Shown here: positions 1 to 11,816 of the stretch, piece after piece | How positions within the stretch are numbered: the first letter of the stretch is position 1 | Layout: every line of letters begins with the position of its first letter | Source: Deltaproteobacteria bacterium | Lineage (GTDB): Bacteria; Desulfobacterota; Syntrophobacteria; Syntrophobacterales; Syntrophobacteraceae | Assembly: GCA_012517315.1 (NCBI GenBank) | Contig: JAAYVE010000056.1 | Span: forward strand, 1 to 64,000 | Length of the DNA: 64,000 nt | Direction of reading: 5' to 3' | Program-made: the position numbers and the translations under genes | The notes under the pieces: generated by a model | Told to the model about the DNA's origin: nothing | Seen by the model: only the letters and a program-made list of their open reading frames with translations | Databases searched by the model: none

Positions 1-2175
1 CAGGTGGGTGGGGCGGGGGTTGCCGCCCTCTCCCTCTCCGACCTCCTCTTTTTCCGCAAGGCGGTCCATGGCCAGGAAAAGACGGGGGGAGGGGTTTTCC
101 ATCATGCCTGCGGCGTCTGCAACTGCAACTGCGGCGTGACGTACCGGGTGAAAAACGGCCGTGTCGTCGAGTTTGCCGGAAACCCGAAAGACCTGATGGG
201 TGCAGACGGGAAGCTGTGCGTCAAGGGGTTTTCAGCCTTGCGAGGCTTCCACGATCCATGCCGCCTCAAGTACCCCCTCATGCGGACGAACCCCGAAAAA
301 GGTAGAGGGGTGGACCCCGCCTGGAAGATCATCTCCTGGGACGATGCTTTTGAACTTGTGGGTAAGAAGTTCCGGGAGGCATACGACAGGGAGGGACCGG
401 GAGGCATCCTCCTATTCGATCGATCCAAACCGTGGGAAAGCCATTTGTGGAATTCCATCGGGACGCCCAATTTCCTTTGCCACGTGGACACCTGCTACAG
501 CAACCACGAAGTGGTCGGCATCGCCATGGCCGGGGCGCGCATCTGGGGATGGGACTTCGCCAATTCCAAGTATATCATGGGCTTCGGATACGATCAGCCG
601 GGAAAGAGCAAGAACATCCACCAGAGGGAATTCATGAAAGCCAGGGCCAAGGGGGCGAAAATCGTCATTTTCGACCCGCGGCTTTCCGTCACGGCGCAGA
701 AGGCGGACCTCTGGATCCCCATCAGGCCTGGTACCGACCTGGCCGCTATCCTGGCCATTATCCACGTCATGGTGAAGCAAAACCTGGTGGACAAGGAATT
801 TGTGGACACCTGCACTATCGGTTTCGACAAACTCAAGGCTCACGTGGAGAAATACACTCCTGAGTGGGCTGAACCCATCACGCATGTTCCCGCCAGGACC
901 CTGCGCCAGGTGGCACGGGAATCCGGCACCTCCCGCCCCGCCACACTAGCTTACCACAAGAGGGATGCAGGCGGGCCCACCTATATGAACTCCCTCCAAA
1001 CCGCCCAGGCCATGCTCACGCTCCAGGCGCTGGCCGGGACGCTGGACAGGCCGGGGGGTCTCTTCTTCCCTCGCAAGCCGAAGCTCCCGGGGATCCATGA
1101 AGTATACAACCTCCAGTATCCGGACCAGCAAAAGATTCCCCGGTTCGACGATCCGGAAAACACCACTCCCCTCGCCTTTAAGAGCAAGAAAGCCGGTTTC
1201 AGCACAGCCGCCGATGCCATCTTGAAAGACGGTCGCACCCGTGTGGCCCTCTTCCACAAGTACAACACCACCTCCTTCACCAATCCCCAGAACCTTGAAA
1301 AGGCGCTGAAAAAACTCGCCTTCATCGTGAACGTGGACATGTACATGACGGAACTCGGCGAATACGCCGACGTGGTGCTGCCGGAGAACTACTGGCTCGA
1401 AAACGGCGGCATCACCGTGAGAGATTACCAGGCCTATCGGCCCCAGGTGCTTCTTGATGAGGGAGCGAAAAGGCTCTTCGACACAAAAGGGTTCGCGGAG
1501 ATTTCCAATGGAATCCTCAAGTCCATGGGCCTGACCCAGTATGTGGTGGATCCCAAACTTCTCAAGAGCAAACAGTTGGAAGCCCTCGGCATCACGGAGG
1601 CATCCCTGCGGCAAGCCGGGGCGGTTTATGACAGCGAGGAACCCTTCAAACCCAAGGGGAAATTCAAAACCCCCAGCGAAAAGGTGGAACTCTACAGCAC
1701 GGTCCTCGAGAAGGCGGGGCACGCACCCCTTCCCGAGTGGGTGGAACCCGCAGCCAAGCCTACCAAGGACTTCCCCTATTACATCGTGACCCACCATCTG
1801 CCCTGGATGCGCATGCTCAAAAACTGCAACGATTCGGTCATCACGGACCTGCAAAAAGAGAATCTGGCCCATATGCATCCTTCCCTGGCAGCCAAGATCG
1901 GGGTCAAGGCAGGGGATATGGTTTGGCTCGAATCGCCCCTGGGAAAGATCAAGATCAAGGCCGCTGTCACGGAAGGCATTCGACCGGACACGATCATGAC
2001 GGAACACGGGTTCGGCATATGGTCCAGGGGGAGATGCGTGGGATGCGGATGGGGAACCAACGAGGGGGAAATCCTTCCCGACAGGACCCTGGAAGAGATG
2101 AAGAAATGGAAGCGCTACGTCGCAGGCCGGGGGGTGGGAGTGTCCGATATCACCGTCAACGTGAAGAGGGCGTGA
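1..2175 (+). CDS. Molybdopterin oxidoreductase catalytic subunit, PsrA/PhsA-like (5' truncated)
   Basis: Large Mo/W-bisPGD oxidoreductase of the DMSO reductase superfamily. The open frame runs through the left edge, so the true start lies upstream. The first visible residues (VGGAGVAALSLS) look like the hydrophobic core of a Tat signal whose twin arginines have been cut off. Counting from the GTG at position 4, a [4Fe-4S] site is seen as Cys36, Cys39, Cys43 and Cys72, with an extra Cys41 between them. Cys164 in VDTCYSN sits where Cys-type enzymes (polysulfide/thiosulfate/arsenate reductases) ligate Mo. The C-terminal molydopterin-dinucleotide-binding region includes HHLPWMRM and MTEHGFGIWS. 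A TorD chaperone and an Fe-S subunit follow. No NrfD subunit is seen for this module, so one may lie upstream or be shared. The substrate cannot be told from sequence; a sulfur compound is my inference. Confidence 0.85.
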   Translation, partial: QVGGAGVAALSLSDLLFFRKAVHGQEKTGGGVFHHACGVCNCNCGVTYRVKNGRVVEFAGNPKDLMGADGKLCVKGFSALRGFHDPCRLKYPLMRTNPEKGRGVDPAWKIISWDDAFELVGKKFREAYDREGPGGILLFDRSKPWESHLWNSIGTPNFLCHVDTCYSNHEVVGIAMAGARIWGWDFANSKYIMGFGYDQPGKSKNIHQREFMKARAKGAKIVIFDPRLSVTAQKADLWIPIRPGTDLAAILAIIHVMVKQNLVDKEFVDTCTIGFDKLKAHVEKYTPEWAEPITHVPARTLRQVARESGTSRPATLAYHKRDAGGPTYMNSLQTAQAMLTLQALAGTLDRPGGLFFPRKPKLPGIHEVYNLQYPDQQKIPRFDDPENTTPLAFKSKKAGFSTAADAILKDGRTRVALFHKYNTTSFTNPQNLEKALKKLAFIVNVDMYMTELGEYADVVLPENYWLENGGITVRDYQAYRPQVLLDEGAKRLFDTKGFAEISNGILKSMGLTQYVVDPKLLKSKQLEALGITEASLRQAGAVYDSEEPFKPKGKFKTPSEKVELYSTVLEKAGHAPLPEWVEPAAKPTKDFPYYIVTHHLPWMRMLKNCNDSVITDLQKENLAHMHPSLAAKIGVKAGDMVWLESPLGKIKIKAAVTEGIRPDTIMTEHGFGIWSRGRCVGCGWGTNEGEILPDRTLEEMKKWKRYVAGRGVGVSDITVNVKRA

Positions 2176-2195
2176 GGGAGGTTGAAACCACATTC

Positions 2196-2798
2196 ATGGA
2201 AGAATTGGAACCTCTGCTTGATTGGTCCAAGAGGGCGATGCTCTACCCGGACACACTGACTTCCATCCAGGAGACAGTCAGGGGTGCATGCTGTTTCAAC
2301 CGGCCGGAATGGGACGCACCGCAGCAGGCGGGGGAGATGGCGCACTGTCTTGACACGTCTCCCGAAGGGTTCCTGCAGGAGCAGCAGGTGGAATACACAC
2401 GGCTCTTCGTCAGCCGTTTTGGAGGCATTCCTGTACCACCCTATGCCTCCTGGTACCTCCACCAGGGCCTTCTCATGGGTCCGTCGCTGGACTGGCTCAC
2501 CTCCGTTTACGCCCGGGGAGGGCTATCGTGGTCTCCCCGGCAGGGGGCCGAGACGCCGGACCACATCGCCGTGGAATTGGAATTCCTGCAGCACCTGGCA
2601 AGGCAGTGTTCCCAAGCCGCGGACCCATCCGCCCGGGAAATGCCGCAGCTTCTGTGGAGCATCTTCTGGGAAGAGCATCTGGGATGTTGGTTACCCAATT
2701 TCGCCGAAAGGCTTGCAAAGAACGCCAGAACCCCTCTCTTTCGTTTGCTGGCGGACGTGCTCATGAATATTTGCCAAAAGGAGATTCGTCATGGGTGA
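2196..2798 (+). CDS. TorD/DmsD-family molybdoenzyme chaperone
   Basis: About 200 residues and all-helical in character. The VPPYASWYL motif and the TPDHIAVELEFL segment are hallmarks of TorD/DmsD/NarJ-type chaperones, which hold a Tat-exported molybdoenzyme in the cytoplasm until its cofactor is loaded. It lies directly after the truncated catalytic subunit and overlaps the Fe-S subunit by 8 bases, so that enzyme is the likely client. I chose the ATG at 2196 (MEELEPLLDW). An in-frame GTG at 2172 overlaps the upstream stop as GTGA and is a real alternative that would add eight residues. No second TorD is visible for the downstream module. Confidence 0.85.
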   Translation: MEELEPLLDWSKRAMLYPDTLTSIQETVRGACCFNRPEWDAPQQAGEMAHCLDTSPEGFLQEQQVEYTRLFVSRFGGIPVPPYASWYLHQGLLMGPSLDWLTSVYARGGLSWSPRQGAETPDHIAVELEFLQHLARQCSQAADPSAREMPQLLWSIFWEEHLGCWLPNFAERLAKNARTPLFRLLADVLMNICQKEIRHG

Positions 2799-3423
2799 TC
2801 GCTACGTGATGATTTTTGAACCCGACCTCTGCATCGGCTGCAATGCCTGTGCGGTGGAATGCCGCCGGTACAACGCCCTCTCCGAGTCGGGTCATTTCAG
2901 GACTCGGGTGGAACCGACGGAAACCGGGACCTTTCCCAACGTCGTCATGATGCACGTGCGCCATTCCTGGGCCCATTGCGACAATGCCGTGTGCATCAAC
3001 AGCTGTCCTACGGGGGCCACCTTCCGTGCGGAAAACGGCTTCGTACTCATCACCAAGGACAAGTGTATCGGCTGCGGGGCGTGCGTGGACGAGTGCCCTC
3101 TCGAGGCCCGGCGCCTCGTGCAGGAAGGCAGTGAGGTCAAGGCGGACAAATGCACATGGTGTTACTCCCGGGTCCATGAGGGGAAATCGCCCGTGTGCGT
3201 CAGTCGATGCATCACCGGGGCACTGAAATTCGGGAAAACCTCGGACCCGGTCATTCAGGAAATCCTCTCCAGGCCGGGCACGGAAGCCTATCATCCGGAA
3301 TTCAAGACGAAACCGCAGCTCTATCACACTCCCCTCAGGGCCAGGCGAAATGACCTCCCCGTCATCCGCTCAGCCATGGTCCCGGGCGTACCCACAACAT
3401 CCATCGATGGGGCGAGGGGCTGA
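2791..3423 (+). CDS. Four-cluster [4Fe-4S] ferredoxin-like electron-transfer subunit (DmsB/PhsB/NrfC type)
   Basis: A 210-residue protein with four cysteine groups typical of the beta subunit of bisPGD respiratory enzymes. The first is Cys14-x2-Cys17-x2-Cys20-x3-Cys24; the others lie in HCDNAVCINSCPTGA, CIGCGACVDECP, and CTWC paired with CVSRC. It would pass electrons between the upstream catalytic subunit and a membrane quinone module. It has no signal peptide, as expected for a subunit carried out with its Tat-exported partner. The start at 2791 overlaps the chaperone gene by 8 bases and follows AAAAGGAG. The last ~45 residues are a proline/arginine-rich tail without cysteines. Confidence 0.9.
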   Translation: MGDRYVMIFEPDLCIGCNACAVECRRYNALSESGHFRTRVEPTETGTFPNVVMMHVRHSWAHCDNAVCINSCPTGATFRAENGFVLITKDKCIGCGACVDECPLEARRLVQEGSEVKADKCTWCYSRVHEGKSPVCVSRCITGALKFGKTSDPVIQEILSRPGTEAYHPEFKTKPQLYHTPLRARRNDLPVIRSAMVPGVPTTSIDGARG

Positions 3424-4020
3424 GGGACAACGCAGCGGCCGAACCAGACAAACGAACGCAGCCTCGTGGGGGGACGGACAAAGAGCGCCCATTCCCTTCA
3501 CGAGGTGTGAACAAGTCTTCCGTCTCTCCTTTTCCACCAGCACTTCCTATAGACCCCTCTTCTTCTTCCGTGTCGAGATATTCCCCCCTTGAGAAAAAGC
3601 TTCCCCCTTCTCCGTTTCATCTTGCACCAGTCGCTGCACGGCGCTCCGTAAGAGATGGGGAGACAAATTATGGCTTGCCTGCACCCTTTTCAGGCACTAT
3701 AAAAGACGACAATGACCCTGGGATTTGCTCATGGGCATGGGACAGGGAAAGAAACAACAGTCCTGAGTTCGGCTACCAAGGCCGCAATCCCTGTCGACAC
3801 GAATCCGGGACGCTGAATCCCTGGATCGGTGGTTGGGTCACCTTCAATCACCCGAAGTAAGGTGCAAGTGGTTTTACCCCCATCGGTTTGATTCAAACAG
3901 ACAGCCCGACGCTGATCATCAATCCCTCGGACGCACACGAGTTCTCCAGCGCTTCCTCATCAACGCGGGAAAAGGAGCATCCTTAAGTCTTAAAGAGGGC
4001 GTGCCGCTTCCAGTGAATGC

Positions 4021-4068
4021 GCCGGGCTTTGGCGCAAAACACCCTGACGCAGGGCGTCTACAGGGTGA
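4021..4068 (+). other. Two consecutive hairpins in the leader
   Basis: The first hairpin pairs GCGCC (4021-4025) with GGCGC (4033-4037). The second is nested: ACCCT (4043-4047) pairs with AGGGT (4064-4068), and inside it GACGC (4048-4052) pairs with GCGTC (4056-4060) around a three-base loop, leaving a TAC bulge. No T run follows either one, so these are not standard terminators. They could be part of a structured 5' leader or a protein site. Confidence 0.45.
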
Positions 4069-4299
4069 AACGTTGTGCATCCCAGGAGAAATCGCACGGC
4101 TTTTCTTGCTGACGGTCCCCGCAAAAGGGAACAAGAGAGGCCGTTAAAACCCACAACCCAGCCCTCACACCAAAAAAGGGTTGAGGTGCGAACAGCATAA
4201 TCCTGGAATTGTGGAGCCTCACTCAACGTTTTTTATTGGAGAAATGGGGGGCAAGGTTTTCGGGAGAGACTCTTGCGTTGTGGGGGGCAGGACGCACGC

Positions 4300-4327
4300 G
4301 ACGTATTTCCATAGACGTATTTCCATA
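4300..4327 (+). repeat. Perfect tandem 14-bp repeat (GACGTATTTCCATA x2)
   Basis: The 14-mer at 4300-4313 is repeated exactly at 4314-4327. It ends 37 bases before the start of the Fe-S subunit gene of the second module. The spacing of 14 is not a whole number of helical turns. A regulator site or a chance duplication are both possible. Confidence 0.75.
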
Positions 4328-4364
4328 ACGGATGACCTCATCTTCACGGGAAAGGATGTGCATC

Positions 4365-5117
4365 ATGGCTTGGAACTTGCCTGTGGAAGACCAGCTGGTC
4401 CGGATGCAAAGAGATCTGGCAAGAGCTCAAAAGAAGAACCCGCCGGACATCAAATGGTCCATGATCATCGACGTGGCCAAGTGCATCGGATGCCATGCAT
4501 GCACCATCGCGTGTGTCTCCGAAAACAAACTACCACCCGGGGTGGTCTACCGGCCGGTATTGGAAGAGGAGATCGGCCATTACCCCCATGTGCGGCGCCG
4601 TTTCCTCCCCAGACCCTGCATGCACTGCCAGAATCCCCCCTGCACGAAGGTATGTCCCGTTACGGCAACATATAAAAATGCGCAGGGAGTCACCATCATC
4701 AGATATGAGCGGTGCATCGGTTGCCGATACTGCCTGGTGGCCTGCCCTTACGGGGCCAGAACGTCGGATTTTGCCGAATGGTACACCAAGGGAACGCCGG
4801 AGTTGCCCGGGAGGCTGGTGGGACGGAAGACAGCATCGGAAGGCTATGAGTCTGATCCAGCGGCGGAGTACGGGAAGAAATGGCCCAAGCGGGGAGGAGG
4901 CTCACCCATCGGAAACGCCAGGAAGTGCCATTTCTGTCTGCACCGCCTGGCGGTGGGGATGCTGCCGGCGTGTGTGACCTCATGTGTGGGCCGTGCCACC
5001 TTCTTCGGAGATCGCAATGATCCCGATAGCCTTGTCTTCTCGCTGCTGAGTTCCCCGCGTATCCACCGTCTCAAGGAGGAACTGGGGACTCAGCCCACCG
5101 TGTACTATCTGGCTTGA
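4365..5117 (+). CDS. TtrB-like four-cluster [4Fe-4S] subunit of the second molybdoenzyme
   Basis: A 250-residue ferredoxin-like subunit, first gene of a three-gene module (Fe-S, NrfD, catalytic). That order is the same as ttrB-ttrC-ttrA of tetrathionate reductase. Clusters are marked by Cys40, Cys43, Cys46 and Cys50 ([11 protein letters not shown]), then [30 protein letters not shown], and CHFC paired with CVTSC. The insertion of about 45 residues between the third and fourth groups is normal in NrfC/TtrB-type proteins. I chose the ATG at 4365, eight bases after AAAGGA, over an upstream ATG at 4332 without such a site. It ends 14 bases before the membrane subunit. Electron transfer between NrfD and the catalytic subunit is the expected role. 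Confidence 0.88.
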
Positions 5118-5131
5118 AAGGGGGATCCACC

Positions 5132-6364
5132 ATGAACGGGACGATCTTCAAAGTGCTCATCGGGTTGGCGGTGGCCGGTTTGCTCGCAGGAAGCTGGGGC
5201 ATGGGGGAACGCCTCATTTACGGACTGAACCCCGTGGCCTTCGGTTCTTACGTGCCGTGGGGGTTGTGGGTTTCATTCTACCTGTTCTTCCTCGGGCTCT
5301 CCGCCGGCGCCTTTCTCGTGACTACCATGACTTATGTCTTTGGGATGAAGCGTTTCGAGGTCATCGCGAGGCTTTCGGCATTCACCGTGCTCATCTGTCT
5401 CCTGTGCGAAGTGCTGTTCATCACCCTGGACCTGGGGCGTATGGAACGGATCTATCGGTTCCTCCTCACTCCCAGTTTCTCTTCCCTCATGACCTGGATG
5501 TTCGTTTTCTTCAACGCCATGCTCGTCATCTATGCCATCAAGACCTTCCTTCTGGCTCGGGGGGACCTTGTCAGGTGGGTTGGCGACCCTGCCAGGAGAG
5601 GCAGGAGCATCTACCGTCTGCTGGCCCTTGGACTCACCTCCTATGATGCGTCCGCATGGGCTCGCGAGAAGCGCATGGTACGACTGCTTTCCATTTTGAG
5701 CCTCCCCGTGGGACTGCTTTTCTATGGAACCAACGGGGCGTTTTTCGCCATTCTCATGAACCGACCCATCTGGAACAGCGCCTTGACACCATTGCTCTTC
5801 ATCATGGCAGCCATCCTTTCCGGGGGCGCCTTGGTGACCTTCCTCACCTTTCTCTTCATGCACGACGAGGAACTGATCCACGGGCTGGGCAGGGCGATTC
5901 TCTTCGTCCTCGTCACATTCCTCTTCCTCCAAGCCATGCAGTTTTTCGTCGGTTACCAGACGGGACTCGCCATGACGGTCACCACCCTGAATCTCATCGC
6001 TTTCGGCCCTTACTGGTACTCCTTCTGGATCGTGCACCTCCTCATTGGGAGCCTCATCCCGTTGATTCTTTTGACCACGCGTCCCCATGATTCGCGAGCC
6101 GTCGCCTGGGCCTGTTTCCTCATTGTGGCGACATTTCTCTCCGTGCGTTTCAACTTCGTCATCCCGGACCTTGCCATCTATAAGCTGGACGGCCTCGAGG
6201 AAACCTTCTTCCACCCGAGGCTGCGCACCAATTACGTCCCCAACTTGAACGAATGGCTGGTGAGCCTCTGGATCGTCAGCCTCGGGCTTCTGGCTTTCCT
6301 CCTGGGAACACGCTGGCTGCCCGTGCTTTCCCCGGAAAAGGAAGGGAGTGAACATGCCATTTAG
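5132..6364 (+). CDS. NrfD/PsrC-type membrane subunit
   Basis: A 410-residue polytopic protein with about nine or ten hydrophobic segments, matching the NrfD/PsrC/QrcD family that docks quinones and passes electrons to the Fe-S partner. The NrfD-like region begins with a GSYVPWGLWVSFYLFF segment, and GLSAGAFLVTTM follows. The ATG at 5132 is preceded by AAGGGGGAT; a TTG at 5114 that overlaps the upstream stop is less likely. The length is longer than classical TtrC (about 340) and nearer to QrcD or large NrfD proteins. The stop overlaps the start of the catalytic subunit. It sits in the cytoplasmic membrane and links the enzyme to the menaquinone pool. Confidence 0.88.
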   Translation: MNGTIFKVLIGLAVAGLLAGSWGMGERLIYGLNPVAFGSYVPWGLWVSFYLFFLGLSAGAFLVTTMTYVFGMKRFEVIARLSAFTVLICLLCEVLFITLDLGRMERIYRFLLTPSFSSLMTWMFVFFNAMLVIYAIKTFLLARGDLVRWVGDPARRGRSIYRLLALGLTSYDASAWAREKRMVRLLSILSLPVGLLFYGTNGAFFAILMNRPIWNSALTPLLFIMAAILSGGALVTFLTFLFMHDEELIHGLGRAILFVLVTFLFLQAMQFFVGYQTGLAMTVTTLNLIAFGPYWYSFWIVHLLIGSLIPLILLTTRPHDSRAVAWACFLIVATFLSVRFNFVIPDLAIYKLDGLEETFFHPRLRTNYVPNLNEWLVSLWIVSLGLLAFLLGTRWLPVLSPEKEGSEHAI

Positions 6365-9300
6365 CAGACATGACCATGAGGATTTTCACTTGGGGGGACG
6401 GGAGATTGGCCGGCGGGAGTTTCTCAAGTCTTCCGCCATCCTCGGAGGAGCACTGGGGGCAACCACAGGCCTGATCCGCCTCAAGACCGACGATGGGGCC
6501 GCTCAAGCCGGGGGGGCTGAGAACGCCGTCGGAATGGCAGACAATGCTTACGTCCATCACCTGCCGGAAAACCAGATCTATTCGGTGTGCCAGCAGTGCA
6601 ACACGAACTGCGGCATCAAGGTGAAGTTCCTGGACGGTCACGTGGCAAAGATCGACGGAAACCCCTACAGCCCATGGACCCTCACCCCGCACATTCCCTA
6701 CGACACCCCCTTTCGGCAGGCAGCTTCCATCGAGGGGGGGATCTGTCCCAAGGGGCAAGCGGGAATCCAGGCCCTCTACGATCCCTACCGCATCGTCAAG
6801 GTCCTGAAGCGTGCGGGGAAGCGGGGGGAAAACAAGTGGAAGACCGTTCCCTTCGAGCAAGCCATCCAAGAGATTGTTTCAGGGGGGGATCTCTTCGGCG
6901 AAGGCAAGGTGGAGGGACTCAAAGACATCTGCGTCCTCAGAGACCCCAAGCTTTCGGCAGAATTGGCCGCGGACGCCGCTCTCGTGGCATCCAAGAAGAT
7001 GTCTCTGGACGCATTCAAGACTAAGCATGCGGCGAATCTGCACACTCTCATCGATCCCGACCATCCCGATCTCGGTCCCAGGAACAACCAGGTGTGCCTC
7101 AACTGGGGTCGGCTGAAAGCCGGGCGGAGCGACCTTCTCAAGCGTTTCTTCAACAGCGCCCTGGGAACCGTCAACACCCACGGCCACACCACCGTTTGTC
7201 AGGGTTCCCTCTACTTTACCTGCAAGGCCATGAGCGATCAGTTCATGGAGGGCAAGTGGGCGGGCGGGAGCAAGTTTTACTGGCAGGCCGACACGGGAAA
7301 CGCCGAGTTCATCATTTTTGTGGGGTCTAACCCTTTCGAGGCCAACTACGGCCCTCCTCTAAGGGTCCAGAAGGTGACCGAGGGAATGATCGACGGCCGC
7401 ATGAGAATCGCCGTCGTCGACCCCCGGTGCTCCAAGACGGCGGCACGCGCATGGAAGTGGCTTCCTGTGCGCCCAAACGGCGTGGCCGCCGTGGCCATGG
7501 GGATGATTCACTGGATCATCGAAAACAAACGCTACGACGCCCGCTACCTTTCCAACGCAAATAAGGCGGCAGCGCTGGCGGACAAGGAACCCACCTGGAC
7601 CCAGGCGACATGGCTCGTAAAAATGACCGAAGAAGGGATCCCCGGACCCTTTCTGCGAGGCTCCGACATCGGCATCGCACCCGAGAAACGCACCAAGAAA
7701 GACGGGGGGGAATGGGAGTTCGATCCTTTCGTGGTCTCCAAGGGGGGGCAGCTCACGCCCTTCGACCCCAATGACGAAAAGGAAGCTGTAGAAGGCGACC
7801 TCCTGGTGGACACCCGGGTGAACGGCACCCGTGTCCAGTCGGTCCTGCAGGTTTACAGGGAAACGGCAGGTGCCCGCAACCTTGCCCAGTGGGCCGAACT
7901 TGCGGGAGTCAAGGAGAAGGACCTGTCGGATCTGGCACTCGAGTTCACCAGTCACGGGAAGCGTGCCGTCGCTGATGTGCACCGGGGTGTTTCCCAGCAT
8001 ACTTCCGGTTTTTACAACGTCCTCGCCTGGATGACGGTCAATGTCCTCATTGGCAATCACGACTGGATGGGGGGGCTTGCCAAAGCCACCACCTACGACA
8101 TCATGGGCGGCAGGGAAGGAAAACCATTCGATCTGGGAAAACAAAGCGGAAAGCTCAAGCCTTGGGGGATTTCCAACATTCGGCACGAAACGGTGTACGA
8201 CAAGACGACCCTTTTTTCCGGGTTTCCGTCCAAGCGCGTTTGGTACCCGTTTTCCAGCGACATCTACCAGGAAGTGATCCCCAGCATGGGAGACGCCTAC
8301 CCATACCCCATCAAGGCCCTTTTCCTCTACATGGCAGCGCCCGTCTATTCGCTTCCTGCCGGGCACAAACTGGTGGAAATTCTTTCGAACCCCGGAAAGA
8401 TCCCCCTCATCATCGCCTCCGACATCGTCATCGGCGAGACGAGCATGTACGCCGACTACATCTTCCCTGATCTGACCTACCTGGAGCGGTGGGAGTTCTC
8501 CGGTTCCCACCCCTCCGTGACCCCCAAAGTGGCCCCCTTCCGGCAGCCCGCGGCACCGCCCCTGACCGAGACCGTCACGGTCTACGGGGAAAAGATGCCC
8601 TTGTCCCTGGAATCCCTGATCCTGGGGCTGGCTGAGAAGCTCAAGCTGCCGGGCTTCGGTGAAAACGCCTTCGGCCCTGGGCTGCACCTCAAACGGGAAG
8701 AGGACATGTATCTCCGGATGGTTGCCAACATCGCCTTCGGTGACAAGCCCGACGGGTCGGAGAGACTGCCGGCTGCGGACGAGGATGAAATGCGAATCTT
8801 CCAGCAGTCGAGAAGGCACCTGCCGCCCACCGTTTTCGATCTGGAACGTTGGAAGTCTCTGGTGGGACCTGAGTGGTGGCCTCGCGTGGTCTATGTCCTC
8901 AATCGCGGCGGTCGTTTTCAGGGGTACACCCAAGCCTACAAGGACATGCAACTCGCCAACAAGTACGGGAAACTGGTGGGAATCTATTTCGACAGGCTGG
9001 TGACCACCAAGAATTCCATGACGGGAAAGCCCTATGTCGGTCACGCGCACTTCATGGAAGGACCCCGCGACTGTTCCGGGCAGCTGCTGGACGATGCATC
9101 CAAGGGGTTCGACATGACCCTCATCACCTACAAGACCATCACCCAAACCAAGTCCAGAACGGGTGGCAATTACTGGCTGCAAGCCCTCTATCCGGAGAAC
9201 TTTTTTGAAATCTCGGCGGCCGATGCCCGCAGGATGGGTTTCAAAGCAGGCGACCTGGTGCAGGTGGTGTCCGCTTCCAATACGGAAGGGATGTGGGACT

Positions 9301-9584
9301 TGGGAAACGGACAGAAAAAGCCCATGATCGGCCACGTGAGGGTCAGGGAAGGCATTCGGCCCGGTGTGGTGGCCTTTTCTCTTGGCCACGGGCATTGGGC
9401 CTACGGGTCGCAGGCGGTGGTCATCGACGGTGTGACGATCCCCGGAGATCCCCGGCGGGCAACCGGGGTTCATGCCAATGCCGCCATGCGGGTAGATCCG
9501 GTTTTGAAGAACACGGGACTTGTGGATCCGGTGGGAGGCAGCGCGGTTTTCTATCAGAGTCAGGTGAAATTGATCAAGGTGTGA
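6354..9584 (+). CDS. Large Tat-exported molybdopterin oxidoreductase, TtrA/PsrA-like
   Basis: 1076 residues, at the upper end of the family and close to TtrA (about 1020). A Tat signal is visible: Arg20-Arg21 in GRREFLKSS, followed by a hydrophobic stretch. A [4Fe-4S] site is formed by Cys79, Cys82, Cys86 and Cys131. The likely Mo ligand is Cys282 in HTTVCQGSLYF, so a Cys-type rather than Ser- or Sec-type enzyme. A C-terminal cofactor domain is present. The start codon overlaps the NrfD gene by 11 bases, with GAAGGGAG upstream; a GTG at 6348 is possible. Gene order suggests a tetrathionate-reductase-type complex on the outer face of the membrane. Thiosulfate, polysulfide, arsenate or selenate are alternatives I cannot exclude. 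No ttrRS two-component pair is next to it. Confidence 0.85.
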   Translation: MPFSRHDHEDFHLGGREIGRREFLKSSAILGGALGATTGLIRLKTDDGAAQAGGAENAVGMADNAYVHHLPENQIYSVCQQCNTNCGIKVKFLDGHVAKIDGNPYSPWTLTPHIPYDTPFRQAASIEGGICPKGQAGIQALYDPYRIVKVLKRAGKRGENKWKTVPFEQAIQEIVSGGDLFGEGKVEGLKDICVLRDPKLSAELAADAALVASKKMSLDAFKTKHAANLHTLIDPDHPDLGPRNNQVCLNWGRLKAGRSDLLKRFFNSALGTVNTHGHTTVCQGSLYFTCKAMSDQFMEGKWAGGSKFYWQADTGNAEFIIFVGSNPFEANYGPPLRVQKVTEGMIDGRMRIAVVDPRCSKTAARAWKWLPVRPNGVAAVAMGMIHWIIENKRYDARYLSNANKAAALADKEPTWTQATWLVKMTEEGIPGPFLRGSDIGIAPEKRTKKDGGEWEFDPFVVSKGGQLTPFDPNDEKEAVEGDLLVDTRVNGTRVQSVLQVYRETAGARNLAQWAELAGVKEKDLSDLALEFTSHGKRAVADVHRGVSQHTSGFYNVLAWMTVNVLIGNHDWMGGLAKATTYDIMGGREGKPFDLGKQSGKLKPWGISNIRHETVYDKTTLFSGFPSKRVWYPFSSDIYQEVIPSMGDAYPYPIKALFLYMAAPVYSLPAGHKLVEILSNPGKIPLIIASDIVIGETSMYADYIFPDLTYLERWEFSGSHPSVTPKVAPFRQPAAPPLTETVTVYGEKMPLSLESLILGLAEKLKLPGFGENAFGPGLHLKREEDMYLRMVANIAFGDKPDGSERLPAADEDEMRIFQQSRRHLPPTVFDLERWKSLVGPEWWPRVVYVLNRGGRFQGYTQAYKDMQLANKYGKLVGIYFDRLVTTKNSMTGKPYVGHAHFMEGPRDCSGQLLDDASKGFDMTLITYKTITQTKSRTGGNYWLQALYPENFFEISAADARRMGFKAGDLVQVVSASNTEGMWDLGNGQKKPMIGHVRVREGIRPGVVAFSLGHGHWAYGSQAVVIDGVTIPGDPRRATGVHANAAMRVDPVLKNTGLVDPVGGSAVFYQSQVKLIKV

Positions 9585-9598
9585 CGGGAGAATAAGGA

Positions 9599-10201
9599 AT
9601 GCCCATACAGACCACCCTGTGCGGCAGGCCTCTCCAAGGCGTGCTGGAAACAATCGAACGCTTTCACGGCTGGAAAGCGCCGGGCGTCGTGATCGGGGCG
9701 TTCATGGTCGACCTTGCCCAGGAGTGCATGGGCCCGGCGGTAGAAGCGGACGCCATCGTGGAAACCCGCCACTGTCTTCCAGATGCCATCCAACTGTTCA
9801 CTCCCTGCACGTTCGGAAACGGCTGGATGAAAGTGCTGAACTGGGACAAATTCGCCTTGACCCTCTATGACAAAAAGGCCCTGGAAGGATTCAGGGTTTG
9901 GCTGGACTTGGCGAAGACACGGAAATTTCCGAATCTGTACAATTGGTATATGCGCTTGGCGCCTAAGCAGTCTCTGCCCCTCGATGTTCTGCTGGAGAGC
10001 ATTCTCGAGGCTGGCAGATCGATGCTCTCCTTCGCCCCTGTGACCGTGACCCGCTACTTCGGAAAGGAAAAGAAACTGGAGATCGGGGTTTGCAACGGCT
10101 GCGGCGAGGCCTACCCGTGCAGCCAGGGAACTCTGTGCCTTGCGTGCCAGGGAGAGGGCTATTATTCCTTTCGTGGAGAACGCGCGCCGGAATCGCTTTG
10201 A
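9599..10201 (+). CDS. FmdE-family protein with C-terminal zinc ribbon
   Basis: A 200-residue protein resembling FmdE, the accessory subunit E named from formylmethanofuran dehydrogenase operons. The N-terminal part has ETIERFHGWKAPGVVIGAFM, like the family's opening His/Gly-rich segment. The C-terminus holds CNGCGEAYPC and CLACQ, a likely zinc-binding treble clef. It begins 14 bases after the molybdoenzyme and is in the same transcription direction, so it is probably cotranscribed. In non-methanogens FmdE-like proteins often sit near Mo/W formate dehydrogenases. A role in cofactor supply or maturation of the neighbouring enzymes is my inference, not shown by sequence. Confidence 0.8.
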   Translation: MPIQTTLCGRPLQGVLETIERFHGWKAPGVVIGAFMVDLAQECMGPAVEADAIVETRHCLPDAIQLFTPCTFGNGWMKVLNWDKFALTLYDKKALEGFRVWLDLAKTRKFPNLYNWYMRLAPKQSLPLDVLLESILEAGRSMLSFAPVTVTRYFGKEKKLEIGVCNGCGEAYPCSQGTLCLACQGEGYYSFRGERAPESL

Positions 10202-10252
10202 TCCACCCGGGCTGGCCCGCACCGATCATCCCCAGTGTGTGAGGTCCCTTAC

Positions 10253-11284
10253 ATGTCCCAGATGAAAATCAGAGTAGAAGACGCCGTGGGGATGGTCCTC
10301 GCCCACGATGTCACCGAAATCCGCCGTGGTGAGTTCAAAGGGCCTGCTTTCAGGAAAGGCTACCGAATCAGGGATGTGGACGTGTGCCATCTCCAGAGGC
10401 TTGGCAAGCGGCACCTTTACGTGCTGAAGATCGAGGAAGGCTTCATGCACGAGGACGATGCCGCGGAAAACCTCGCCCAGGCTTTTTGCGGTCCCGGGGT
10501 GACCTGGAAGGATCCGCCGAAGGAGGGTAAGATCGCCCTCGTGGCTGAAAGGGACGGCCTTTTCAAAGTCAGCGTGGAGGCGTTGGAGAGGATCAATCTC
10601 CTAGGGGATATCATGTGCGCGTCACGGCATACGAATTCACTGGTCCGCACAGGTGACACGGTGGCGGCGACCCGTGCTATCCCCCTGGTTGTTCCCAAAC
10701 CGCTGGTGGACGAGGCAATTTCCTTTGCCATGGCTGGAGAAGAGCGCCTCCTGGAAGTGAAGCCGCTCCGGAAAGCCAGGGCCGGAATCGTCATTACGGG
10801 CAACGAGGTCTTCACCCACCTCATCGAGGACCAGTTCGAAATGGTCCTGCGAAGGAAACTCCAATGCCTGGGTTCTGAGGTTATAGGAGCTATCCTCGCC
10901 CCGGACGATACCGAGTTCATCGTTGACCAAATCAAGCGGTTTCTTTCCGAAGGCGCCGATCTTCTCCTCGTCACAGGCGGCATGTCCGTGGACCCCGATG
11001 ACGTGACCCGTCAGGCTGTCATGAAGGCGGGTGGATCGGACTTCGTCTACGGGTCCCCTGTCCTTCCGGGAGCCATGTTCATGATCTCCTCCATCGGTTC
11101 CGTTCCGGTCCTGGGAGTCCCCGCCTGTGGGCTCTACCATGAAGTGACGATCCTGGATCTCGTGCTTCCCCGAATCCTGGCTGGGGCGATGCTCACCCGC
11201 CGAGACATCGCCGCCATGGGACACGGGGGACTCTGTTTCCATTGCCGGGAGTGCCGTTTTCCCATCTGCCCCTTCGGAAAATGA
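10253..11284 (+). CDS. Molybdopterin-binding protein (MoeA/MogA-like domain) with cysteine-rich C-terminus
   Basis: A 343-residue protein. Residues from about 165 form a MoCF/MPT-binding domain: the AGIVITGNEVF strand and LVTGGMSVDPDDVTR, the glycine-rich molybdopterin loop seen in MoeA and MogA. The N-terminal third (VEDAVGMVLAHDVTEI) resembles the start of MoeA. The extreme C-terminus carries CFHCRECRFPICPFGK, a four-cysteine cluster (C-x2-C-x2-C-x4-C) absent from standard MoeA. I chose the ATG at 10253, which follows TGAGG; a GTG at 10235 is in frame. Together with the FmdE-like gene it suggests a local cofactor-handling pair for the molybdoenzymes. It is not obviously MoeA itself. Confidence 0.82.
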   Translation: MSQMKIRVEDAVGMVLAHDVTEIRRGEFKGPAFRKGYRIRDVDVCHLQRLGKRHLYVLKIEEGFMHEDDAAENLAQAFCGPGVTWKDPPKEGKIALVAERDGLFKVSVEALERINLLGDIMCASRHTNSLVRTGDTVAATRAIPLVVPKPLVDEAISFAMAGEERLLEVKPLRKARAGIVITGNEVFTHLIEDQFEMVLRRKLQCLGSEVIGAILAPDDTEFIVDQIKRFLSEGADLLLVTGGMSVDPDDVTRQAVMKAGGSDFVYGSPVLPGAMFMISSIGSVPVLGVPACGLYHEVTILDLVLPRILAGAMLTRRDIAAMGHGGLCFHCRECRFPICPFGK

Positions 11285-11486
11285 GGACGCCGCCGAGGTG
11301 GACTGCGAGGACAAGGGAAACGAATCCTGCAAGGAACAAGGAGGCAGAGGATACCCATTTCGGGTTTCCGGCAAACAGGGGAGGAAGGAGAGGGGACCCC
11401 CCTGTGTCCCGCGCTGCATCCGACGGCATCGGAAGTATTCCCGCAGATGATGGTCGCAAGTGCGTATAAGAAAAAGGAGGTTTTCC

Positions 11487-11816
11487 ATGAAGCACGACAG
11501 GATCCCCCGATGGTACGCCCGAACGAGGGAGAAATACCCCAACTTTGCAAAGGCCCTTGAAAATCTGGGTGAAACGGTGCGCAAGGAGGGACCGCTGGAC
11601 GAAAAAACGTCCCATCTGGTTCAACTGGGAGCCGCTGCGGCCATCCGCTCGGAAGGGGCGGTCCACAGCCATGCCAGGAGAGCGATGGAGGCCGGCGCCA
11701 CGCCCGAGGAAGTCCACCACGCCATCCTGCTCCTCACGAGCACCATCGGCTTTCCCGCCACCTCCGCGGCACTCAGCTGGGTCTATGACCTTCTTAATGC
11801 GCCCCCGGAGTCCTGA
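11487..11816 (+). CDS. Carboxymuconolactone decarboxylase-family (AhpD-like fold) protein
   Basis: A 109-residue protein with the CMD-family core (LDEKTSHLVQLGAAAAI, then HSHARRAMEAGATPEEVHHAILL). The fold is that of AhpD and gamma-carboxymuconolactone decarboxylase. The catalytic CxxC of AhpD-type peroxidase partners is missing: the equivalent stretch reads SEGAVHSHARR, keeping the histidines but no cysteine. It may therefore be a non-redox CMD homologue. AAGGAGG lies six bases before the ATG. It is 200 bases downstream of the molybdopterin-binding protein; whether it belongs to that operon is open. Confidence 0.82.
   Translation: MKHDRIPRWYARTREKYPNFAKALENLGETVRKEGPLDEKTSHLVQLGAAAAIRSEGAVHSHARRAMEAGATPEEVHHAILLLTSTIGFPATSAALSWVYDLLNAPPES

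Follow-up and report, generated by a model that had tools for sequence, protein, structure and literature searches.

The window analyzed here is the 64,000-nucleotide stretch that begins contig C25 of a Syntrophobacteraceae genome (G000:C25:1-64000), and it opens with two neighboring molybdoenzyme modules, called modules 1 and 2. The favored reading, which we give an even chance of being correct, is that they belong to an arsenic, or arsenic-sulfur, redox island of a sulfate reducer, in which two periplasmic modules would work independently of each other on substrates predicted from sequence. Each module is complete in itself, because the two usually occur apart. The genome (4.43 Mb, 99% complete) is that of a sulfate reducer with dsrAB, its dsrA scoring above the cut-off in a profile search. 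It contains about 17 genes of the DMSO-reductase family, and no match to ArrA above the cut-off was found in it.

An earlier model-made annotation of the bare sequence (the original prediction) had described two molybdoenzyme modules here, and sequence and profile checks recover all the genes it named, in its order and on the + strand. Module 1 is the Cys-type enzyme that it recognized and consists of a catalytic subunit A (1..2175, 724 amino acids, open at the 5' end), a TorD/NarJ-family chaperone (2196..2798, PF02613) and an iron-sulfur (Fe-S) subunit B (2791..3423). Subunit A is a bis-molybdopterin guanine dinucleotide enzyme with the [4Fe-4S] motif CxxCxxxC and its Cys ligand in HVDTCYSNH; B has four [4Fe-4S] motifs and neither a leader nor a membrane segment. 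Module 2 has the ttrBCA-type order: an Fe-S subunit B of 250 amino acids (4365..5117), an NrfD-type membrane subunit C on the quinone side (5132..6364) and a catalytic subunit A of 1078 amino acids (6348..9584) with the twin-arginine translocation (Tat) signal GRREFLKSS and ligand Cys284 in GHTTVCQGSLYF. An FmdE-family protein with a treble-clef zinc finger (9599..10201) and a MoCF/MoeA-like molybdopterin-binding protein (10235..11284) follow, and both lie in the module 2 cluster of many relatives. The 941-bp gap between the modules (3424..4364) holds no convincing gene, and searches of it matched neither a sigma-70 promoter nor a terminator on the + strand; the arrangement suggests that modules 1 and 2 are transcribed separately. 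This gene content is real and not a product of chance, since the module 1 set recurs in seven other loci and the B-C-A set of module 2 in more than 40. Plasmid searches returned distant relatives only (≤35% identity).

The truncation of module 1 A is an assembly break, as the first base of the window is also that of the contig. In G032 and G038 a LysR gene precedes the module 1 orthologue by about 350 bp, and a search of G000 with that LysR gave its best match (39%) at the extreme end of contig C22, in an orientation that leads out of it. The final bases of C22, ATG CAG GGC ATC ACG AGA AGG CGG TTT CT, encode MQGITRRRF(L); C25 begins QVGGAGVAAL, and the module 1 A orthologue reads MSRREFLQWTTGGVAAAAL. 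Joining C22 to C25 with about one base missing restores the Tat signal and places the first 10 or so codons of A on C22. Homology, position and spacing thus suggest that C22 adjoins C25 at the window start and that module 1 has the order lysR-A-torD-B.

C22 carries the following genes, all oriented towards module 1: acr3, CDF-MauE, a VKOR-thioredoxin-like gene, arsM, an arsR-type and an arsC-like gene, and genes for an Fe-S protein, a rhodanese, a CCG protein and LysR. Three of them exceed their family cut-offs (acr3, 458.9 bits vs 282.8; arsM, 347.5 vs 263; the arsR-type regulator, 94.1 vs 55), and the arsC-like gene falls below its own (136.7 vs 174.3). Two other genomes have arsenic genes near module 1. 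G360 carries acr3, arsM, rhodanese, MauE and lysR genes upstream of its 36% homologue, and G032 carries rhodanese, CDF-MauE, arsC, arsR, ArsP and DsbD_TM genes at a distance of 7-20 kb, the first five of them at 9-20 kb. In two genomes module 1 has a CCG-domain (HdrD/GlpC-like) Fe-S protein beside it, each time on another side (G000:C22:1652-2887 and L081:10225-11562).

Arsenic genes also adjoin module 2 in about ten genomes, in arrangements that differ among lineages. Desulfovibrio DV has a divergent arsR-acr3 pair beside the module; Desulfomicrobium has arsR-acr3-arsC after A and ArsP before B; locus L100 has arsR-ArsP-DsbD_TM-acr3 after A; G003 has arsC, acr3, rhodanese and DsbD_TM before B; and G132 has arsM after A. 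Further ars genes adjoin module 2 in L107, L109 and L114. The association was found in 10 of 53 module 2 loci and 1 of 35 control loci (p=0.044, with relatives counted as independent), and the genome with the sole positive control has its own module 2 about 25 kb away from it. The two neighborhoods are linked in another way, because a cassette of a CysE-like transferase, a NifU-like protein and a 302-amino-acid protein without a Pfam match (L194:11606-13721, L195:3592-5690, L197:9590-11602) borders module 1 in G101 and G316 and module 2 in G132. The co-location of the two modules, to which the original prediction had drawn attention, appears meaningful. Its suggestion that sulfur compounds are processed in two steps is not proven, and the neighboring genes point instead to arsenic or arsenic-sulfur species.

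Relatives of module 2 share 65-80% identity across the Desulfobacterota and 53-59% in Chloroflexota and Anaeromyxobacter. Most of the more than 40 loci retain B-NrfD-A, some relatives at 50-57% lack NrfD, and FmdE, MoCF or both stand 3' of the module in about half of the Desulfobacterota loci; no TorD adjoins module 2 in the relatives' loci examined. Phylogenetic trees group module 2 A with TtrA (support 100), inside a clade of its own whose catalytic subunits have the ligand motif GHTTVCQGSLYF and which is named here for the CQGS in it. It shares with the TtrBCA system of Salmonella and Yersinia the B-C-A order, the NrfD anchor, the Tat signal on A and membership of the same superclade. It differs in its ligand motif (HTTVCQGSLYF in the window A; CGLAYRAG, within GAYCGLAYRAG, in canonical TtrA; CEQSHHIAY in the Dissulfurimicrobium form), in the attached FmdE and MoCF genes and in its TtrA equivalog score (473 bits vs a cut-off of 1750, with Yersinia TtrA at 1980). 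An additional Tat signal on B is a feature of the Ttr clade (Duval 2008); Yersinia TtrB starts MDQGKRAFLQKLG, and the window B has no such leader. The AlphaFold prediction for module 2 A was of too low quality to be used (mean predicted local distance difference test score 52.6).

Module 1 has close orthologues in G038, G032 and G036 (70-72% identity) and more distant relatives in G157, G101, G316 and G132 (43-45%) and G360 (36%). Among relatives with genomic context, A-torD-B is kept in G038, G032, G101, G316, G157 and G132 and A-B in G360. None of them has an NrfD anchor nearby (full context: L080, L081, L194, L195 and L198); module 1 does not form a Psr/Phs-type A-B-C operon with such an anchor. 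Module 1 A and its relatives form one clade (100/100) apart from PsrA (2vpw), PhsA, ArrA (6cz7) and TtrA. By score it is closest to the Phs/Psr group (PDB 2vpw), but it differs from PhsABC and PsrABC in its separate clade, in lacking an NrfD subunit and in having TorD in the cluster, and its PhsA equivalog score is 367 bits vs a cut-off of 694 (E. coli PhsA, 1361). Both modules resemble ArrAB in their Tat-exported A with an Fe-S B, in an anchor that may be missing and in their arsenic context, but neither groups with 6cz7 ArrA and both score far below the ArrA cut-off (1600 bits). The marks of QrcB, a lost metal-ligand Cys and a Qrc score, are likewise absent, as both catalytic subunits retain the cysteine. 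By these comparisons module 1, which has a defined set of partners and no anchor, is a deep and uncharacterized branch of molybdoenzymes. Three module 1 genomes gave no dsrA match, and its enzyme is therefore not tied to sulfate reduction.

These features suggest the following scheme. Module 2 would be a Tat-exported A-B pair that, because it sits on an NrfD anchor, would take electrons from menaquinol; the most likely substrate of its Ttr-like clade is arsenate or a thioarsenate, and the FmdE and MoCF proteins probably help to load its cofactor. Module 1 would be an A-B pair without an anchor, with a TorD chaperone of its own and preceded by a LysR-type gene. Its electron partners are probably c-type cytochromes of the periplasm and not quinone, and its substrate is probably an arsenic-sulfur or sulfur species. 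ACR3, ArsM and the island's rhodanese and thiol-redox proteins would take over the products. A more specific version, speculative and rather unlikely, is that module 1 represents a previously undescribed, cytochrome-linked family of periplasmic molybdoenzymes reducing thioarsenates, arsenic-sulfur species that form in sulfidic waters, beside the quinol-linked CQGS arsenate reductase in sulfate reducers that lack arr.

Several organisms respire arsenate without arr, among them Desulfomicrobium Ben-RB, whose enzyme is still unassigned, and Anaeromyxobacter sp. PSR-1. One study reportedly implicates a TtrA homologue in As(V) respiration of PSR-1 (Muramatsu 2020, PMID 32978134), and a Pyrobaculum TtrA has likewise been proposed as an arsenate reductase. 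Two module 2-type copies stand at locus L120 of PSR-1, without FmdE or MoCF seen beside them; the copy placed in the tree belongs to the CQGS clade with 55% identity to module 2 A, though it may not be the published locus. Because the CQGS clade occurs in PSR-1 and adjoins arsR-acr3-arsC in Desulfomicrobium and Desulfovibrio, it is a concrete, testable candidate for the arsenate reductase of arr-less respirers. Many annotated "tetrathionate reductases" of Desulfobacterota and Chloroflexota may thus act on arsenic.

Several points weigh against an arsenic island. The substrates of both modules are deduced from sequence, and the C22/C25 join is based on homology, not on reads. No acr3, arsC, arsM or arsP lies within about 7 kb of 42 of the 53 module 2 loci, most other module 1 loci lack ars genes nearby, and the p value of the association is uncorrected for relatedness. 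The PSR-1 copies at L120 may be distinct from the locus named in the arsenate study. A Ttr-type BCA enzyme of Desulfolithobacter is made specifically during thiosulfate disproportionation and is dominant among such proteins, and a relative of module 2 at 44-46% identity occurs in the obligate sulfur disproportionator Dissulfurimicrobium.

The last two observations bear on the strongest alternative, which we regard as somewhat unlikely: that both modules act on sulfur compounds such as tetrathionate, thiosulfate and polysulfide, with module 1 reducing thiosulfate or polysulfide, module 2 serving as a tetrathionate or thiosulfate-disproportionation enzyme, and the ars genes being neighbors by chance. 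The nearest curated families are indeed TtrA for module 2 and PhsA for module 1, the host is a sulfate reducer with dsrAB, the top thiosulfate-disproportionation protein of Desulfolithobacter is of the Ttr-type BCA kind, a related BCA cluster occurs in D. hydrothermale, and the rhodanese gene on C22 is compatible with sulfur transfer. However, the two scores lie far under both equivalog cut-offs, the ligand motif of module 2 matches neither that of TtrA nor that of the form in D. hydrothermale, and ars neighbors recur, differently arranged, in several lineages. Since the Desulfolithobacter enzyme so dominates the proteins specific to thiosulfate disproportionation, sulfur roles are possible, especially for side branches.

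It is highly improbable that module 1 is a MOLY cluster (MolyA-MolyB-MolyC), which is found in sulfur-disproportionating Desulfobacterota and has been proposed as a marker of elemental sulfur disproportionation (PMC12998232). The parts list is identical, an A, a B and a TorD-family chaperone with no anchor, but the gene order differs, and the trees place the TorD-A-B clusters of D. hydrothermale and G288 beside PsrA (100/100), in a clade other than that of module 1. A clade uniting module 1 with these MolyA proxies, which were chosen by synteny and organism (Dissulfurimicrobium, G288) and are not the original authors' sequences, was rejected (approximately unbiased test, p=0.000144). YedE-type matches in G000, at C56 and C12, have no evident YTD cluster around either, and Desulfurivibrio alkaliphilus (G223) has no MOLY-like cluster at its TorD genes.

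Least probable of all is that the two modules work as a single unit with a common NrfD and chaperone: they are adjacent on the same strand, with the only PF02613 gene of the genome and the only NrfD gene of the window, but a gap separates them, and either partner set is kept in genomes that lack the other module or carry it at another site. Genomes with module 1 relatives often lack a closely related module 2, and where both occur (G032, G157 and G132) they are on different contigs. The original prediction had counted one chaperone and one NrfD for two catalytic subunits. The chaperone count holds genome-wide and the NrfD count within the window, the whole genome having five NrfD genes. Its proposal that quinone or maturation parts are shared does not agree with the relatives, in which module 1 lacks NrfD and module 2 has its own NrfD and no TorD. 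It had also taken well-studied clades with full partner sets as the result that would speak against it; each module does have its own full partner set, but neither falls in a well-studied clade. Sharing of FmdE and MoCF by the two modules was considered separately and rejected, as both genes stand behind module 2 in relatives that have no module 1.

Variants of the module 2 layout were seen in several genomes. Clusters L096, L102 and L115 have two tandem NrfD genes (about 410 amino acids each) between B and A, and two neighboring module 2-type catalytic genes occur per locus in L089 (G081), L120 (PSR-1) and L099/L201 (G134). At L193 (G157:C168) a Ttr-like B-A pair lies between small cytochromes and is followed by a second molybdoenzyme, an Fe-S protein, an NrfD and cytochromes, an arrangement that resembles the one reported for Desulfolithobacter (GF1_03930-03980).

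Downstream of module 2 in the window lies an AhpD/CMD-like gene (11460..11816, + strand), homologues of which are also found 3' of module 2 in L084/L094 and L117. Elsewhere in the genome, a QrcB-like protein whose metal-ligand Cys is lost (G000:C34:179511-181736) is encoded beside an NrfD gene (C34:177447-178400), and the two probably represent the sulfate reducer's Qrc complex. A QrcB/QrcC-like fusion of 972 amino acids (G000:C47:117872-121972, locus L017), with an NrfD gene nearby, resembles alternative complex III (ActB).

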